Shown here piece after piece: positions 38,005 through 51,851 of a stretch of DNA of 64,000 nt (its first letter is position 1; each line of letters starts with the position of its first letter). Below the pieces are notes generated by a model. That model saw only the letters and a program-made list of their open reading frames with translations. It made no database searches and was not told where the DNA came from. Source of the stretch: Streptomyces naganishii JCM 4654. GTDB lineage: Bacteria > Actinomycetota > Actinomycetes > Streptomycetales > Streptomycetaceae. The stretch is from positions 496,001-560,000 of the forward strand of contig NZ_BMVF01000001.1 in NCBI RefSeq assembly GCF_014650575.1, written 5' to 3'. Both the position numbers and the translations under genes were made by a program.

Positions 38005-38778
38005 TCACAGCCTCCGGGTGGCGAGGGTCAGGCGGTCACGTGCGTCGAAGAGGGCGTCCTTGACCGTCTGCTCGTGCGCCGGCGTCAGCCTGGCGACCGG
38101 GATCGAGCAGCTGATCGCGTCCCGCGCCGGGGTGCGGTACGGGATCGCCACGCCGAAGCAGCGCAGGCCCAGGGTGTTCTCCTCGCGGTCCACCGCGTAC
38201 CCCTGCTCGCGGATCTGGTGCAGTTCCGCGATCAGCTTCTCGCGGTCGGTGATGGTGTGCTCGGTCAGCGCGGGCAGGGTCTCCGGGAGCATCTTGCGGA
38301 CCTGCTCGTCGGAGTACGTGCTCAGCAGCGCCTTGCCCAGGGAGGTGGAGTGGGCGGGCAGGCGGCGGCCGACGCGGGTGAAGGGGCGCAGGTAGTGCTG
38401 CGACTGCCGGGTGGCGAGGTAGACGACGTTGGTGCCGTCCAGGCGCGCGAGGTGGATCGTCTCGGTGGTGTCGTCGGAGAGGCGGTCCAGGGTCGGCCGG
38501 GCCGCCGCGACGACCTCGTCGCCGTCGATGTAGGAGGTGCCCACCAGCAGCGCCCGCACCCCGATGCCGTACCGGGTGCCGGTCGCGTCGGTCTCCACCC
38601 AGCCGAGCTCGACCAGGGTGCGCAGCAGCATGTACAGGCTGGACTTGGGATAGCCGACGGCCTCCTGGACCGCGGCCAGGGAGTGCATACCGGGCCGGCC
38701 GGCGAAGTACTCGAGCAATTCCACGGTCCGCACCGCGGACTTGACCTGCGCCCCGCCGCCTGTATCGGCTGCCGACAT
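38005..38778 (-). CDS. IclR-family transcriptional regulator
   Basis: A 257-residue IclR protein. The winged helix (about 12-75) has VKSAVRTVELLEYFAGRPG, VGYPKSSLYMLLRTLVELGW. The effector domain (about 85-250) has HLARLDGTNVVYLATR, LPAHSTSLGKALLSTYS and a conserved Cys (RCFGVAIPYR). It is divergent from the aldehyde dehydrogenase gene, with two dyads between them, so it probably represses that gene until a sugar acid or keto acid is present. Confidence 0.88.
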   Translation of the reverse strand: MSAADTGGGAQVKSAVRTVELLEYFAGRPGMHSLAAVQEAVGYPKSSLYMLLRTLVELGWVETDATGTRYGIGVRALLVGTSYIDGDEVVAAARPTLDRLSDDTTETIHLARLDGTNVVYLATRQSQHYLRPFTRVGRRLPAHSTSLGKALLSTYSDEQVRKMLPETLPALTEHTITDREKLIAELHQIREQGYAVDREENTLGLRCFGVAIPYRTPARDAISCSIPVARLTPAHEQTVKDALFDARDRLTLATRRL

Positions 38779-38811
38779 CGCCCTTGACCCCTTCGTTGGA
38801 CGAGAACTTCG

Positions 38812-38868
38812 GAGATATAGTCTCGGACACCATATTCATCATCAGAGACAGCGTTCAGTATATCGAAC
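38812..38868. promoter_or_regulatory. Candidate IclR operators in the divergent promoter
   Basis: GTTCAGTATATCGAAC (38853-38868) is a near-perfect 16-bp dyad with GTTC/GAAC arms, close to IclR-family sites. A second dyad, GAGATATAGTCTC, lies at about 38812-38824. Together they sit between the IclR start (38778) and the dehydrogenase start (38920). Confidence 0.5.
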
Positions 38869-38919
38869 ACCCCTGAGGATGACGTACGTACTGCGGCAAG
38901 ACATGTGGAGGGACCCGCG

Positions 38920-46544: not shown

Positions 46545-46912
46545 GCGAATTGAACTTACCGAGCTGAATTGAAAAATGCATCGCGCTCGGGCCTTACGAG
46601 AACGCGGTGTCTGTGTTATCGCGCGGGCGCGCGGTCGCGCGAGCACCGCTGTGATGTGGGGGTTTGCCCGTTAATTACTGGGCAAAAAGGATGGCTTTGT
46701 GGAGTGCGTCACAACGACATAACCCTCACGGAACCTTCCCGAATCACCCCGCCAGGCGTTTGCGAAATCTCCGTGTTTAGTCATTCGGAAACGGGGCAGA
46801 AGAATACGGGCAGCTACCCGAACTGAATTCTGGAATTACCCGTTGTTCAAGCCCCGGTAACCCGTCGATCCGTTTCCGAAGAATGCCGCCGTGCCCATGG
46901 GGGCGGGCGTAC
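46545..46912. other. Intergenic ect leader and promoter region
   Basis: 368 bp without a gene and less GC-rich than its surroundings. On the minus strand TTCAATTC occurs twice, 20 bp apart, at about 46547-46575, just upstream of ectA. Stretches such as TTAATTACTGGGC and ATTCTGGAATTACCCG lie further up. Salt- or heat-responsive control of ectABCD should reside here, but I could not fix the -10 and -35 hexamers. Confidence 0.5.
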
Positions 46913-48013
46913 TCAGGGCCAGACGGTCGCGCCGGCCTCGAGGGCGGACCGGAGGTCCGTCCCGGTACCCAGGGCGGTCAGGGCACTGGACAGGGCCGTC
47001 AGGCAGGCGTCGACCGTTTCGCGGGTGGCGGCGGGGCCGTAGTGGTTGACGCGGACCATCTCCTTGGCGAGGGCGCCGCCGCCCGCCGCCAGGGGGAGGG
47101 ACGGGTCGGTCTCCAGGGCGCGGGCCACCAGCTCCGAGGCCGTGATGTGCGGCGGGGTGCGCAGGGTGGTGGCGACGGGGGCCGCCTCGCGGTCGTCGTG
47201 CACGTACGGCTCCAGCCCGCCGCCCAGCGCCCGTACGCCCGCCCGGGTCGCCGCCGCCGCGGACCGGTGGCGGGCCATGACGGCCTCGGCGCCCACCGAC
47301 TCGATGCGCTCCAGGCACGCCTCGAGCGCCAGCATCTCCAGCTGGGCCGGAGCGTGCGGCAGCGCGCGCCGGCCGGCGTCCGTCCAGCGCTCCTTCCAGT
47401 CCAGCAGGGACAGGTAGGAGCGGCGCGGGGCGCGCGGATTGGCCGCCATCCGGGCCCAGGCCCGCTCGCTCACCGACACCGCCGACACCCCGGCGGGACC
47501 CCCCATCGCCTTCTGCGCCCCGATCACGCACAGGTCCACGCCCCACGCGTCCGGTAGCACCGGCTCTGCGCCGACCGAGGCGACGGCGTCCAGGTAGAAC
47601 AGGGCGCCCCGCTCCCGCGCCACCTCGCCGATCTCCCCGACCGGGTTGGTGTTGCCGGTCGCCGCCTCCGCGTGCACCAGCGACACGAAGTCGATCTCCG
47701 GGTGTGCGGCGAACGCCTCCCGCACCTGCTCCGCCGTCACCGCCGTGTGGTAGGGCACCGCCAGGTCGACCACCGTCGCACCGCAGTCCCGCAGCCAGTC
47801 CCCGAAGGTCTGGCCGTACGGTCCCGTGATCACGTTCAGCGCCGTCGTGCCCGGGCCCGCCGTGCCGCGGATCGCGCTCTCCAGTGGCAGCAGCGCCTCA
47901 CCCTGCATGATCACGACGTCCTGCTCGGTGCCCAGCAGCCGCGCCACCCGGTCCTCGATCGAGGCGAAGCGGGCGGCGCTCAGCGGGGCGAGGTCCAGGA
48001 AGGGGTGGGTCAC
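46913..48013 (-). CDS. Class V aminotransferase (alanine-glyoxylate/serine-pyruvate type)
   Basis: A 366-residue PLP enzyme. NVITGPYGQTFGDWL, VSLVHAEAATGNTNPVGEIG, YLDAVASVGAEP with the pyridine-binding Asp, and CVIGAQKAMGGPAGVS with Schiff-base Lys are typical of the alanine-glyoxylate aminotransferase family. The GTG at 48011-48013 has GGAGAG upstream. It is divergent from the amino-acid ABC transporter operon across a 207-bp region with a strong dyad, which suggests common control and use of imported amino acids. Confidence 0.83.
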   Translation of the reverse strand: MTHPFLDLAPLSAARFASIEDRVARLLGTEQDVVIMQGEALLPLESAIRGTAGPGTTALNVITGPYGQTFGDWLRDCGATVVDLAVPYHTAVTAEQVREAFAAHPEIDFVSLVHAEAATGNTNPVGEIGEVARERGALFYLDAVASVGAEPVLPDAWGVDLCVIGAQKAMGGPAGVSAVSVSERAWARMAANPRAPRRSYLSLLDWKERWTDAGRRALPHAPAQLEMLALEACLERIESVGAEAVMARHRSAAAATRAGVRALGGGLEPYVHDDREAAPVATTLRTPPHITASELVARALETDPSLPLAAGGGALAKEMVRVNHYGPAATRETVDACLTALSSALTALGTGTDLRSALEAGATVWP

Positions 48014-48125
48014 GGCGGTGCTCTCTCCTGCGGTCGTGGGTAGACCCTCCGAGAGTAGTCGGCGGCGGACCCACCCCCTCCACGGGCAACTTCTTAGGCC
48101 GGCCGCTCGTCCGACCATCGGAATG

Positions 48126-48155
48126 GTTTGAGACACTCAAACATATCCTTATAAT
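48126..48155 (+). promoter_or_regulatory. Promoter with overlapping perfect dyad, amino-acid ABC operon
   Basis: GTTTGAG-ACA-CTCAAAC (48126-48142) is a perfect 7-bp dyad. It contains the -35 TTGAGA (48128-48133), and a consensus -10 TATAAT (48150-48155) follows after 16 bp. A repressor bound to the dyad would block RNA polymerase. The divergent aminotransferase may share it. Confidence 0.65.
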
Positions 48156-48220
48156 CGGAAGCCGCGCACGACCGTGCGTCCCCATAGCACCACCCCCGTC
48201 CCCCACAGAGAGGTCGCCCC

Positions 48221-49081
48221 GTGATCACGCTCTCCGGCCGCCGGGCCCGCATTCTGGCCGCCACCACCGCCGCGGCCGCCCTGGTCGTCGTGGCCGGCTG
48301 CACGTCGAGCGGCAACGGCGGCACCAAGACGGCCGCCGGCGGGGTCGAACTAGCCAAGGCCGGCCAGCTCACCACCTGCACCCACCTGCCGTACCCGCCC
48401 TTCCAGTCGGAGATCGACGGCAAGGTCCAGGGCTTCGACGTCTCGATGATCGACCTGGTCGCCAAGAACCTCGGCGTGAAGCAGCAGATCCTCGACACGC
48501 CGTTCGAGAACTTCAAGACCGGCGCCTTCCTCAACTCCGGCGAGTGCGACCTGGCCGCGGCCGGCATGACGATCACCCCCGAGCGCAAGAAGCACGTCGA
48601 CTTCTCCGACCCGTACTTCAACGCCACCCAGGCCCTGCTCGTCGCCAAGAGCAGCGGCATCACCTCGCTCGCCGACGTCAAGGCCAAGGGCAAGAAGCTC
48701 GGCGCCCAGGCGCAGACCACCGGCGAGGACTACGCGAAGAGCAAGGGCTACGACCCGGTCTCCTTCCACTCCTCCGACGCCGTGCTCAACGGCCTGCGCA
48801 CCGGCCAGGTCCAGGCCGTCGTCATCGACTACCCGGTCGTCCAGGGCTGGCTGAAGGACAAGGCCAACGCCGCCGCCTTCCAGATCGCCGCCAACATCAA
48901 CACCGGTGAGCAGTACGGCTTCACGGTCAAGAAGGGCAACACCAAGCTGCTCGCCGCCATCAACAAGGCGATTGCGGACGCCAAGGCCGACGGCACGTAC
49001 AAGAAGCTGTACGAGCGGTGGATCGGCCCCTACGACGCCGCCGCGGCCTCGCCCGCCGCGGCCTCGCCCTCCGCCTCATGA
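48221..49081 (+). CDS. Amino-acid ABC transporter substrate-binding lipoprotein
   Basis: A 286-residue lipoprotein of binding-protein family 3. The lipobox is VVVAGC with lipidated Cys27. [33 protein letters not shown] and [24 protein letters not shown], here read as [15 protein letters not shown] then the rest, are the family hallmarks. The C-terminus is an Ala/Ser-rich tail. The gene uses GTG and overlaps the permease gene by 4 nt (ATGA). A polar amino acid is the likely ligand; a compatible solute is possible given the ect neighbour. Confidence 0.87.
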
Positions 49082-49911
49082 CCGACACCGACGTACAGCT
49101 CCAGCCCCGGAAGAAGGGCCTGACGCGCCGTCAGAAGCGCAGGCTGTCGCGCGGCGCGCAGTACGCCGTCTTCGCCGCCGCCGTGATCGCCTTCGCGCTC
49201 TCGGCGGACTGGGGACGGCTGCAGAACCAGTTCGCCCAGGTGGACATCGCCCAGCGGATGTTCCCCGAAGTGATCACACTGGCGCTGAAGAACACCGTGC
49301 TCTACACCCTGTCGGGGTTCGTCTTCGGCCTGGTGCTCGGCATGGTCGTCGCGCTGATGCGGCTGTCCTCCGTCGGCCCCTACCGCTGGCTCGCCGGGGT
49401 CTACATCGAGATCTTCCGCGGCCTGCCCGCGCTGCTGATCTTCATCTTCGTCGGCGTGGCCGTGCCGCTGGCCTTCCCCGGCACCCAGATCGTCGGCGGC
49501 ACCTACGGCAAGGTCGCCCTCGCCCTCGGCCTGGTCTCCGCCGCGTACATGGCCGAGACCATCCGCGCGGGCATCCAGGCCGTGCCCAAGGGCCAGATGG
49601 AGGCCGCCCGTTCACTGGGCTTCTCGCCCGCGCGGGCCATGGTCTCCATCATCGTCCCGCAGGCGTTCCGGATCATCCTCCCGCCGCTCACCAACGAACT
49701 CGTCCTGCTCTTCAAGGACTCCTCGCTGGTGCTGTTCCTCGGCGTGACGCTCCAGGAGCGCGAACTGTCCAAGTACGGCAACGACCTGGCCAGCACCACC
49801 GCCAACTCCACGCCGATCCTCGTCGCCGGCCTGTGCTACCTGCTGGTCACGATCCCGCTCGGCTTCGTCGTGCGCCGCATGGAGTCCAGGTCGCAGGAGG
49901 CGATCCGATGA
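49078..49911 (+). CDS. Amino-acid ABC transporter permease (HisM/GlnP type)
   Basis: A 277-residue membrane protein. After a basic N-terminal tail and helix 1 it has [34 protein letters not shown] and [20 protein letters not shown], the last being the EAA-type coupling loop of polar amino-acid permeases. It is a single permease and should form a homodimer. It overlaps both neighbours by 4 nt. Confidence 0.89.
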
Positions 49912-50702
49912 GCCGCCCCGAGATCGTGATCCGGGACCTGCACAAGTCCTTCGGCGACAACGAGGTGCTGCGCGGCATCGACCTGGAGATCGGCCAGGGC
50001 GAGGTGGTCTGCGTGATCGGCCCCTCCGGCTCCGGCAAGTCCACGCTCCTGCGCTGCGTGAACCTGCTCGAGGAACCCACCAAGGGCCAGGTCTTCGTCG
50101 GCGGCACCGAACTCACCGACCCGGACGTCGACATCGACGCCGTGCGCCGCCGTATCGGCATGGTCTTCCAGCAGTTCAACCTCTTCCCGCATCTGACCGT
50201 CACCGAGAACCTCACGCTGCCGCAGCGCCGGGTGCTGCGCCGGGACAAGGCGAGCGCGGCCCGTGTCGCCGCCGAGAACCTGGAGCGCGTCGGCCTCGCG
50301 GAGAAGGCGGACGCCCACCCCTCCTCCCTCTCCGGCGGACAGCAGCAGCGGGTGGCGATCGCCCGGGCGCTCGCCATGGGCCCGGAGGTGATGCTCTTCG
50401 ACGAGCCGACCTCCGCGCTCGACCCCGAACTGGTCGGCGACGTCCTCGCCGTGATGCGGATGCTGGCCCGCGAGGGCATGACGATGATGGTCGTCACCCA
50501 CGAGATGACCTTCGCCCGCGAGGTCGCCGACCGGGTCGTCTTCATGGACGGCGGAGTCGTCGTCGAGGACGGCGCCCCGGAGCAGGTCATCGGCGCCCCG
50601 CGCCACGAGCGCACCCGCCACTTCCTCTCCCGCCTCCTCGACCCGGCGATGGCCGAGGTGGAGGAGGGCGCCGGGGACCGCCCGTCCCAGGGCGAGGGGT
50701 AG
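49908..50702 (+). CDS. Amino-acid ABC transporter ATP-binding protein (GlnQ type)
   Basis: A 264-residue ATPase. Walker [10 protein letters not shown] at 38-46, Q-loop [10 protein letters not shown], signature LSGGQQQR, Walker [14 protein letters not shown] and the H-loop VVTHEM are all intact. The QFNLFPHLT string is typical of glutamine/glutamate importers. It completes the three-gene operon with the binding protein and permease. No fourth component is present. Confidence 0.92.
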
Positions 50703-50756: not shown

Positions 50757-51851
50757 ATGAGCGATCAGGTGCTGCACGTGAAGGGGCGGGTCCTCGCCGG
50801 GCCGGACGAGGACCGGGTCCACGACGAGTTGTGGGTGGTCGGCGGCCGGATCTCCTACGAGCGTCCGCCCGGCGCCCGGGACGTGGCGACCGTCGAGGGC
50901 TGGGCGCTGCCCGGCCTCGTCGACGCGCACTGCCACGTCGGGCTCGACGCCCACGGACCCGTTCCGGACGACGTCAGCGAGAAGCAGGCGCTCACCGACC
51001 GGGACGCCGGCACCCTGCTGATCCGCGACGCCGGATCGCCCTCGGACACCCGCTGGATCGACGACCGCGAGGACCTGCCGAAGATCATCAGGGCGGGGCG
51101 GCACATCGCCCGCACCCGCCGCTACATCCGCGGCTACGCCCACGAGGTCGAGCCCGCCGACCTCGCCTCCTGCGTCGCCCGGGAGGCCCGGCGCGGCGAC
51201 GGCTGGGTCAAGCTGGTCGGCGACTGGATAGACCGCGACCTCGGGGACCTGTCGGCCTGCTGGCCGCGCGGGGCGGTGCAGGAGGCGATCGCCGAGGCGC
51301 ACCGTCTGGGCGCGCGGGTGACCGCCCACTGCTTCGCCGAGGACTCGCTGCGGGATCTGGTCGAGGCGGGCATCGACTGCGTCGAGCACGCCACCGGGCT
51401 GACCGAGGAGCTGATCCCGCTCTTCGCCGAGCGGGGGGTCGCGATCGTGCCCACGCTCGTCAACATCGCGCTGTTCCCGCGGCTCGCGGACGGCGGCGAG
51501 GCCAAGTACCCGCGCTGGTCGGCGCACATGCGCAGGCTGTACGAACGGCGCTACGACACCGTGCGCGCCGCGTACGACGCCGGCATCCCGGTGTACGTCG
51601 GCACCGACGCCGGCGGCACGCTGCCGCACGGGCTGGTGGCGGGGGAGGTCGCGGAACTGGTCAAGGCCGGCATCCCGCCCCTGGAGGCCCTGTCGGCGAC
51701 GACCTGGGCCGCCCGCGCCTGGCTCGGCCGGCCCGGCCTGGACGAGGGCGCCCCGGCCGACCTGGTGGTCTACGAGGAGGACCCGAGGGCGGACGTACGG
51801 GTGCTGGCGGCGCCGCGGCGGGTGGTGCTGAACGGGCGGATCACCGGCTGA
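50757..51851 (+). CDS. Amidohydrolase family protein
   Basis: A 364-residue metal-dependent hydrolase. PGLVDAHCHVG is the metal-binding HxH motif, VTAHCFAE and DCVEHATGL hold the later His ligands, and GTDAGG the final Asp. The C-terminal EGAPADLVVYEEDPR returns to the small beta-domain typical of imidazolonepropionase/prolidase-like enzymes. The substrate is unknown. It starts 55 bp after the ABC operon, same strand, so they may be co-transcribed. Confidence 0.83.
   Translation: MSDQVLHVKGRVLAGPDEDRVHDELWVVGGRISYERPPGARDVATVEGWALPGLVDAHCHVGLDAHGPVPDDVSEKQALTDRDAGTLLIRDAGSPSDTRWIDDREDLPKIIRAGRHIARTRRYIRGYAHEVEPADLASCVAREARRGDGWVKLVGDWIDRDLGDLSACWPRGAVQEAIAEAHRLGARVTAHCFAEDSLRDLVEAGIDCVEHATGLTEELIPLFAERGVAIVPTLVNIALFPRLADGGEAKYPRWSAHMRRLYERRYDTVRAAYDAGIPVYVGTDAGGTLPHGLVAGEVAELVKAGIPPLEALSATTWAARAWLGRPGLDEGAPADLVVYEEDPRADVRVLAAPRRVVLNGRITG

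Follow-up and report, generated by a model that had tools for sequence, protein, structure and literature searches.

The promoter of an ABC importer operon in Streptomyces naganishii JCM 4654 carries a perfect inverted repeat over its -35 hexamer, and the repeat is conserved together with the promoter and the importer in other Streptomyces genomes. We analyzed the element within a window of 64,000 nucleotides (contig NZ_BMVF01000001.1, positions 496,001 to 560,000). Judged by its sequence, it is a conserved operator-promoter of an ordinary, known mechanism type. On balance, we favor the interpretation that a homodimeric helix-turn-helix repressor of the importer operon, encoded at another place in the genome, uses the dyad as its operator.

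The dyad is composed of two seven-base arms and a three-base centre. It encloses the hexamer TTGAGA, in agreement with the first-pass annotation, which had also claimed a perfect -10; the TATAAT hexamer is indeed present, separated from the -35 by a spacer of 16 bases (Table 1). The inverted repeat thus overlaps the promoter core, as is typical of repressor operators. The promoter scores 11 out of 12. It is the one promoter found by the scan between 47000 and 50000, where shuffled sequences contain 0.2 on average, and at a stricter threshold (at least 10 out of 12) TTGAGA and TATAAT at 48128-48155 form the sole promoter on both strands of the whole window. Perfect seven-base dyads are common in the window, which contains 15 of the 7-3-7 type and 160 with spacers of 0 to 10 bases, as would suit a chance dyad within an ordinary promoter. 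Among the 15, only the dyad discussed here has more than two A or T in its arms. Its letters occur once in the window when up to two mismatches are allowed (shuffle mean 0.03), and the 7.8 Mb genome contains a single exact copy. The runner-up sites in the genome carry two mismatches, and the three of them that were inspected (L002, L003, and L004) fall within predicted reading frames or at their margins.

Table 1 Features of the importer promoter region and adjacent genes in window coordinates
Feature	Position	Strand	Basis or remark
Far upstream box TTCTTAGG	48091-48098		1.49 bits per column; 35 bases before dyad, fixed
Upstream box, consensus RCCATCGGTTTG (window letters ACCATCGGAATG)	48114-48125		1.53 bits per column
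Dyad GTTTGAG-ACA-CTCAAAC	48126-48142		Perfect 7-3-7; probable operator
-35 hexamer TTGAGA, inside dyad	48128-48133	+	Promoter scan
-10 hexamer TATAAT, within conserved TCCTTATAATCGGAA (48146-48160)	48150-48155	+	Promoter scan, conservation
Probable ribosome-binding site GAGAGG of binding-protein gene	48208-48213	+	Predicted from sequence
Substrate-binding protein, SBP_bac_3, polar amino acid type	48221-49081	+	Family profile match
Permease, BPD_transp_1 with HEQRo_perm_3TM	49078-49911	+	Family profile match
ATPase, GlnQ-like	49908-50702	+	Family profile match
Amidohydrolase, Amidohydro_1, weakly like Xaa-Pro dipeptidase	50760-51851	+	Family profile match
Class V aminotransferase	46913-48013	-	GTG start 48013 preferred over mechanical 48136
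Candidate aminotransferase -10, TACTCT on minus strand	48053-48058	-	Predicted, by eye

Conservation is the decisive argument against chance. We compared 80 named Streptomyces loci that encode a relative of the binding protein (one of the records is titled only Actinobacteria bacterium). The dyad is at the same place in 74 of them and missing from six (L018, L043, L059, L064, L073, and L082). A partly overlapping set of 98 distinct sites, obtained from 123 loci after exclusion of duplicates and of loci in which no site scored, has the consensus RTTTGRG-NNN-CYCAAAC. The two arms hold 1.74 and 1.72 bits per column, compared with 0.45 for the centre and 0.34 for the far upstream flank. When changes were counted on a 74-taxon tree, the arm columns underwent 0-6 changes, except for the outer left base (18) and the inner right base (14). 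The three centre columns changed 19-21 times each, and 87 fourfold codon columns 6.5 times on average. Because the flank columns were aligned gap-free, their change counts are inflated by indels; those of the centre columns, which are fixed between the arms, are not. Perfect 7/7 palindromes make up only 31 of the 98 sites. The outer left position tolerates R and the inner right position Y, and with these variants both strands read as the half-site RTTTGRG. Arms conserved across species around a free centre are the pattern of a repressor operator. The promoter alone fails to explain the conservation of the right arm, because this arm sits in the spacer between the -35 and -10, where polymerase makes no such demand on the sequence. 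A chance origin is refuted as far as sequence allows, since both arms are conserved in 74 of the 80 loci and the centre is free, and we give it next to no credence. Since relatives keep the dyad, we consider it functional.

In the mechanism that we favor, a dimeric helix-turn-helix repressor would bind the two RTTTGRG half-sites, which are separated by about one helical turn and span the -35 of a presumed sigma-70 (HrdB-type) promoter. As the half-sites cover the -35, the bound repressor would be expected to block RNA polymerase. The controlled unit would be the importer operon (48221-50702), probably together with the amidohydrolase gene behind it. The regulator would be unlinked, with the dyad as its one obvious strong target.

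The conserved element extends beyond its earlier description and comprises TTCTTAGG, RCCATCGGTTTG, the dyad, and TCCTTATAATCGGAA, with constant spacing throughout. The block TCCTTATAATCGGAA holds 1.89 bits per column and underwent 1.3 changes per column on the tree. The predicted transcription start is at about 48162, and TTCTTAGG lies approximately 65-70 bases before it. The two additional boxes with fixed spacing exceed the needs of a plain repressor, and could mean that an activator is involved. Such a protein, alone or together with the dyad protein, would bind the DNA between TTCTTAGG and the dyad, both included, and recruit the polymerase. We regard this as possible but tentative: TTCTTAGG and RCCATCGGTTTG nearly match the dyad in conservation, their distance is constant, and both persist in two loci (L042 and L053) despite the loss of the aminotransferase gene. 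However, the promoter looks strong unaided, because its -35 (TTGAG) and -10 (TATAAT) are close to the consensus and separated by a 16-base spacer, and the dyad covers the -35 itself.

The region just after the -10 contains a further repeat, GGAAC-N5-GTTCC, in most of the relatives (offset 31-45 from the dyad start, 48157-48171 in window numbering). The window carries CGCACG-AC-CGTGCG (48165-48178) in its place. All five pairs of the GGAAC-N5-GTTCC repeat can form in 51 of the 98 sites and four pairs in 24, which would agree with the element being an RNA hairpin of the leader. Nevertheless, the dyad is upstream of the -10, and folding of the 98 leaders is no better than that of shuffled sequences (mean z -0.05), so that the conserved hairpin was rejected. 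No credible match to a riboswitch or another known RNA was found in Rfam. An RNA element is therefore very improbable.

The dyad is situated between divergent genes. The minus strand encodes ectDCBA and the class V aminotransferase, which is followed by the gap. The plus strand beyond the gap encodes the binding protein, permease, ATPase, and amidohydrolase, and then an SCO1860-type LAETG protein. The first-pass annotation placed both the opposite-strand aminotransferase and the ect genes correctly; the ect genes lie beyond the aminotransferase and are oriented away from the dyad. Plus-strand open frames rich in arginine (16-23% R) run opposite the aminotransferase (46572-48220).

Operators shared by divergent genes are common, and the dyad is within the shared gap, so it might belong to the aminotransferase or co-regulate the aminotransferase and the importer. 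This is unlikely, as four loci from which the aminotransferase was deleted (L042, L053, L132, and G110, the last equivalent to L129 and L194) retain the dyad, which is located about 90 bases upstream of the predicted aminotransferase start. Moreover, importer-less genomes with the aminotransferase lack the dyad but keep similar sequence near the gene, including, by eye, one resembling the candidate aminotransferase -10. The amidohydrolase gene is commoner at the ect locus than the importer: it is present in 104 of 119 genomes of the order, nearly all of one genus. In 14 of 20 fetched loci it is beside the aminotransferase or ectA and the importer is absent. Visual inspection of the gap between the aminotransferase or ectA and the amidohydrolase revealed no dyad in these 14 loci (L173 in part), and the composite pattern of the element is absent from the 14 importer-less genomes. 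Kept without the aminotransferase and absent without the importer, the promoter and dyad thus go with the importer cassette. Conservation supports the earlier proposal that an operator covers the -35 hexamer of a strong promoter. The deletion loci and importer-less genomes assign it to the operon of the importer, which comprises the binding protein, permease, ATPase, and amidohydrolase genes, rather than to the divergent aminotransferase.

The space between the ATPase and amidohydrolase genes varies among relatives. Five loci (L006, L014, L017, L037, and L206) contain an additional gene there, which is not in the window and which, from its AHPDD motif, we take to encode a PIG-L/LmbE-like deacetylase. 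A gap of like size is present in L009, L015, L022, and others.

The composite pattern, searched for with up to three mismatches in 297 genomes of the family, is present in 52, once in each. All are Streptomyces (52 of 153), with none among 144 genomes of 16 other genera. Twelve genomes have a best match at least 78% identical, and 11 of them carry the composite pattern, the exception being G171. The sequences upstream of more distant importers (approximately 47-72% identity) are different, and these importers were not seen to have a regulator gene in common. A search of 150 Streptomyces genomes for TTTGRGNNNCYCAAAC gave matches in 38; at three off-locus places that were inspected (L187, L189, and L192), the rest of the element is absent. 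The whole element is gone in G171, L043, L059, and L064, with the binding-protein gene downstream intact. Three other loci (L073, L018, and L082) retain bits of the -10 region and have lost the dyad. The site thus appears to be dispensable, as the importer is kept without the dyad in six of the 80 named loci and in G171. The promoter block is deleted and the binding-protein reading frame intact in L043, L059, L064, and also L206. In G697 (L209), a copy located away from the ect genes has, by eye, a degenerate dyad next to the remains of an aminotransferase gene.

The importer is of the polar amino acid type, with SBP_bac_3 and HEQRo-type permease matches above the cut-offs. The binding protein belongs to family 3; its nearest models are those for Lys/Arg/Orn, glutamine, and cystine, and its nearest solved chain is AncQR. 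It shares the family 3 binding protein, single permease, and GlnQ-like ATPase with importers of the GlnHPQ and ArgT/ArtJ types, but differs from them in being below all equivalog cut-offs. We consider a polar amino acid or a relative of one to be the probable substrate, which might also serve as the signal. The suggestion of the first-pass annotation that a compatible solute is sensed is not supported beyond the ect neighborhood, because the binding protein reaches 57.7 bits against the ectoine EhuB model, far below the NCBIfam cut-off of 190.9, and EutD was above its family cut-off in none of 61 Streptomyces genomes searched. The components of the importer likewise remain under the cut-offs of the EhuC, EhuD, and EhuA models. 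We consider it highly unlikely that the signal is an ectoine-like or ectoine-derived amino compound, sensed by an unlinked regulator with a single target and in control of a module for import and breakdown. This module would consist of the importer, the amidohydrolase, the PIG-L-like deacetylase of some relatives, and the class V transaminase. If it existed, its enzymes would correspond in type to the hydrolase, N-deacetylase, and transaminase that act in ectoine breakdown, in genomes that lack a recognised EutD.

We looked for a linked regulator by comparing approximately 20 kb around the locus in six genomes with the importer and five without it, considering genes of the reference genome common to at least four of the six. 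No regulator tracks the element within this distance; only the importer, overlapping ORFs, and one spurious-looking ORF are confined to the importer genomes. The gene for the dyad-binding protein is therefore probably unlinked to the importer operon. A single transcription factor gene, of the IclR type (38005-38778), was recognised in the tracked set; it occurs in all six importer genomes and in four of the five without the importer. It is divergent from an aldehyde dehydrogenase gene (window 38005-38905). Its product was rejected as a likely dyad binder because its own gap carries, by eye, a different conserved repeat, GTTC...GAAC. The element provides a defined bait of about 70 bases, present in a single copy and accompanied by natural variants and natural losses. 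With such a bait, one could search for the protein that regulates the importer operon, which occupies the ect locus in about a third of the sampled Streptomyces genomes.

Among the Streptomyces publications listed in our literature searches, none describes the dyad site, judged by title and abstract opening. In the parts of the publications considered here, three known systems resemble it. The operator of the MarR protein SAV4189 from S. avermitilis is also an inverted repeat with a three-base centre over promoter elements (PMC6036246), but its letters, TTGCCYKHRSCAA, differ from RTTTGRG-N3-CYCAAAC, and the SAV4189 site has at least four mismatches out of 13 anywhere in the block. The EnuR/EutR repressor, known from ectoine catabolic clusters (PMC8739950, PMC5924519), resembles the proposed repressor in having an operator over the sigma-70 promoter of an importer operon; its consensus ATTGT-N6-ACAAT (PMC8739950) has at least three mismatches out of 10 in the block. 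GlnR, ArgR, and PhoP exert control around ectA and SCO1863 in S. coelicolor (PMC10704036, PMC3073908, PMC5839063, PMC3087709), which shares the chromosomal neighborhood and involves nitrogen signals. SCO1863 is described as a possible nitrogen storage protein of 406 amino acids with 20% arginine (PMC3073908), and may be a wrong-strand frame like those opposite the aminotransferase. The GlnR box GTNAC-n6-GNNAC has three mismatches out of seven in the dyad block. The dyad matches neither this box nor the sites of EnuR and SAV4189. A GlnR-like box, GTCAC-n6-ATAAC, with one mismatch out of seven is located in the gap before ectA (46708-46723), consistent with the GlnR control reported for ectABCD (PMC10704036). 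The control of the importer operon would be separate from such regulation of the ect genes by nitrogen.
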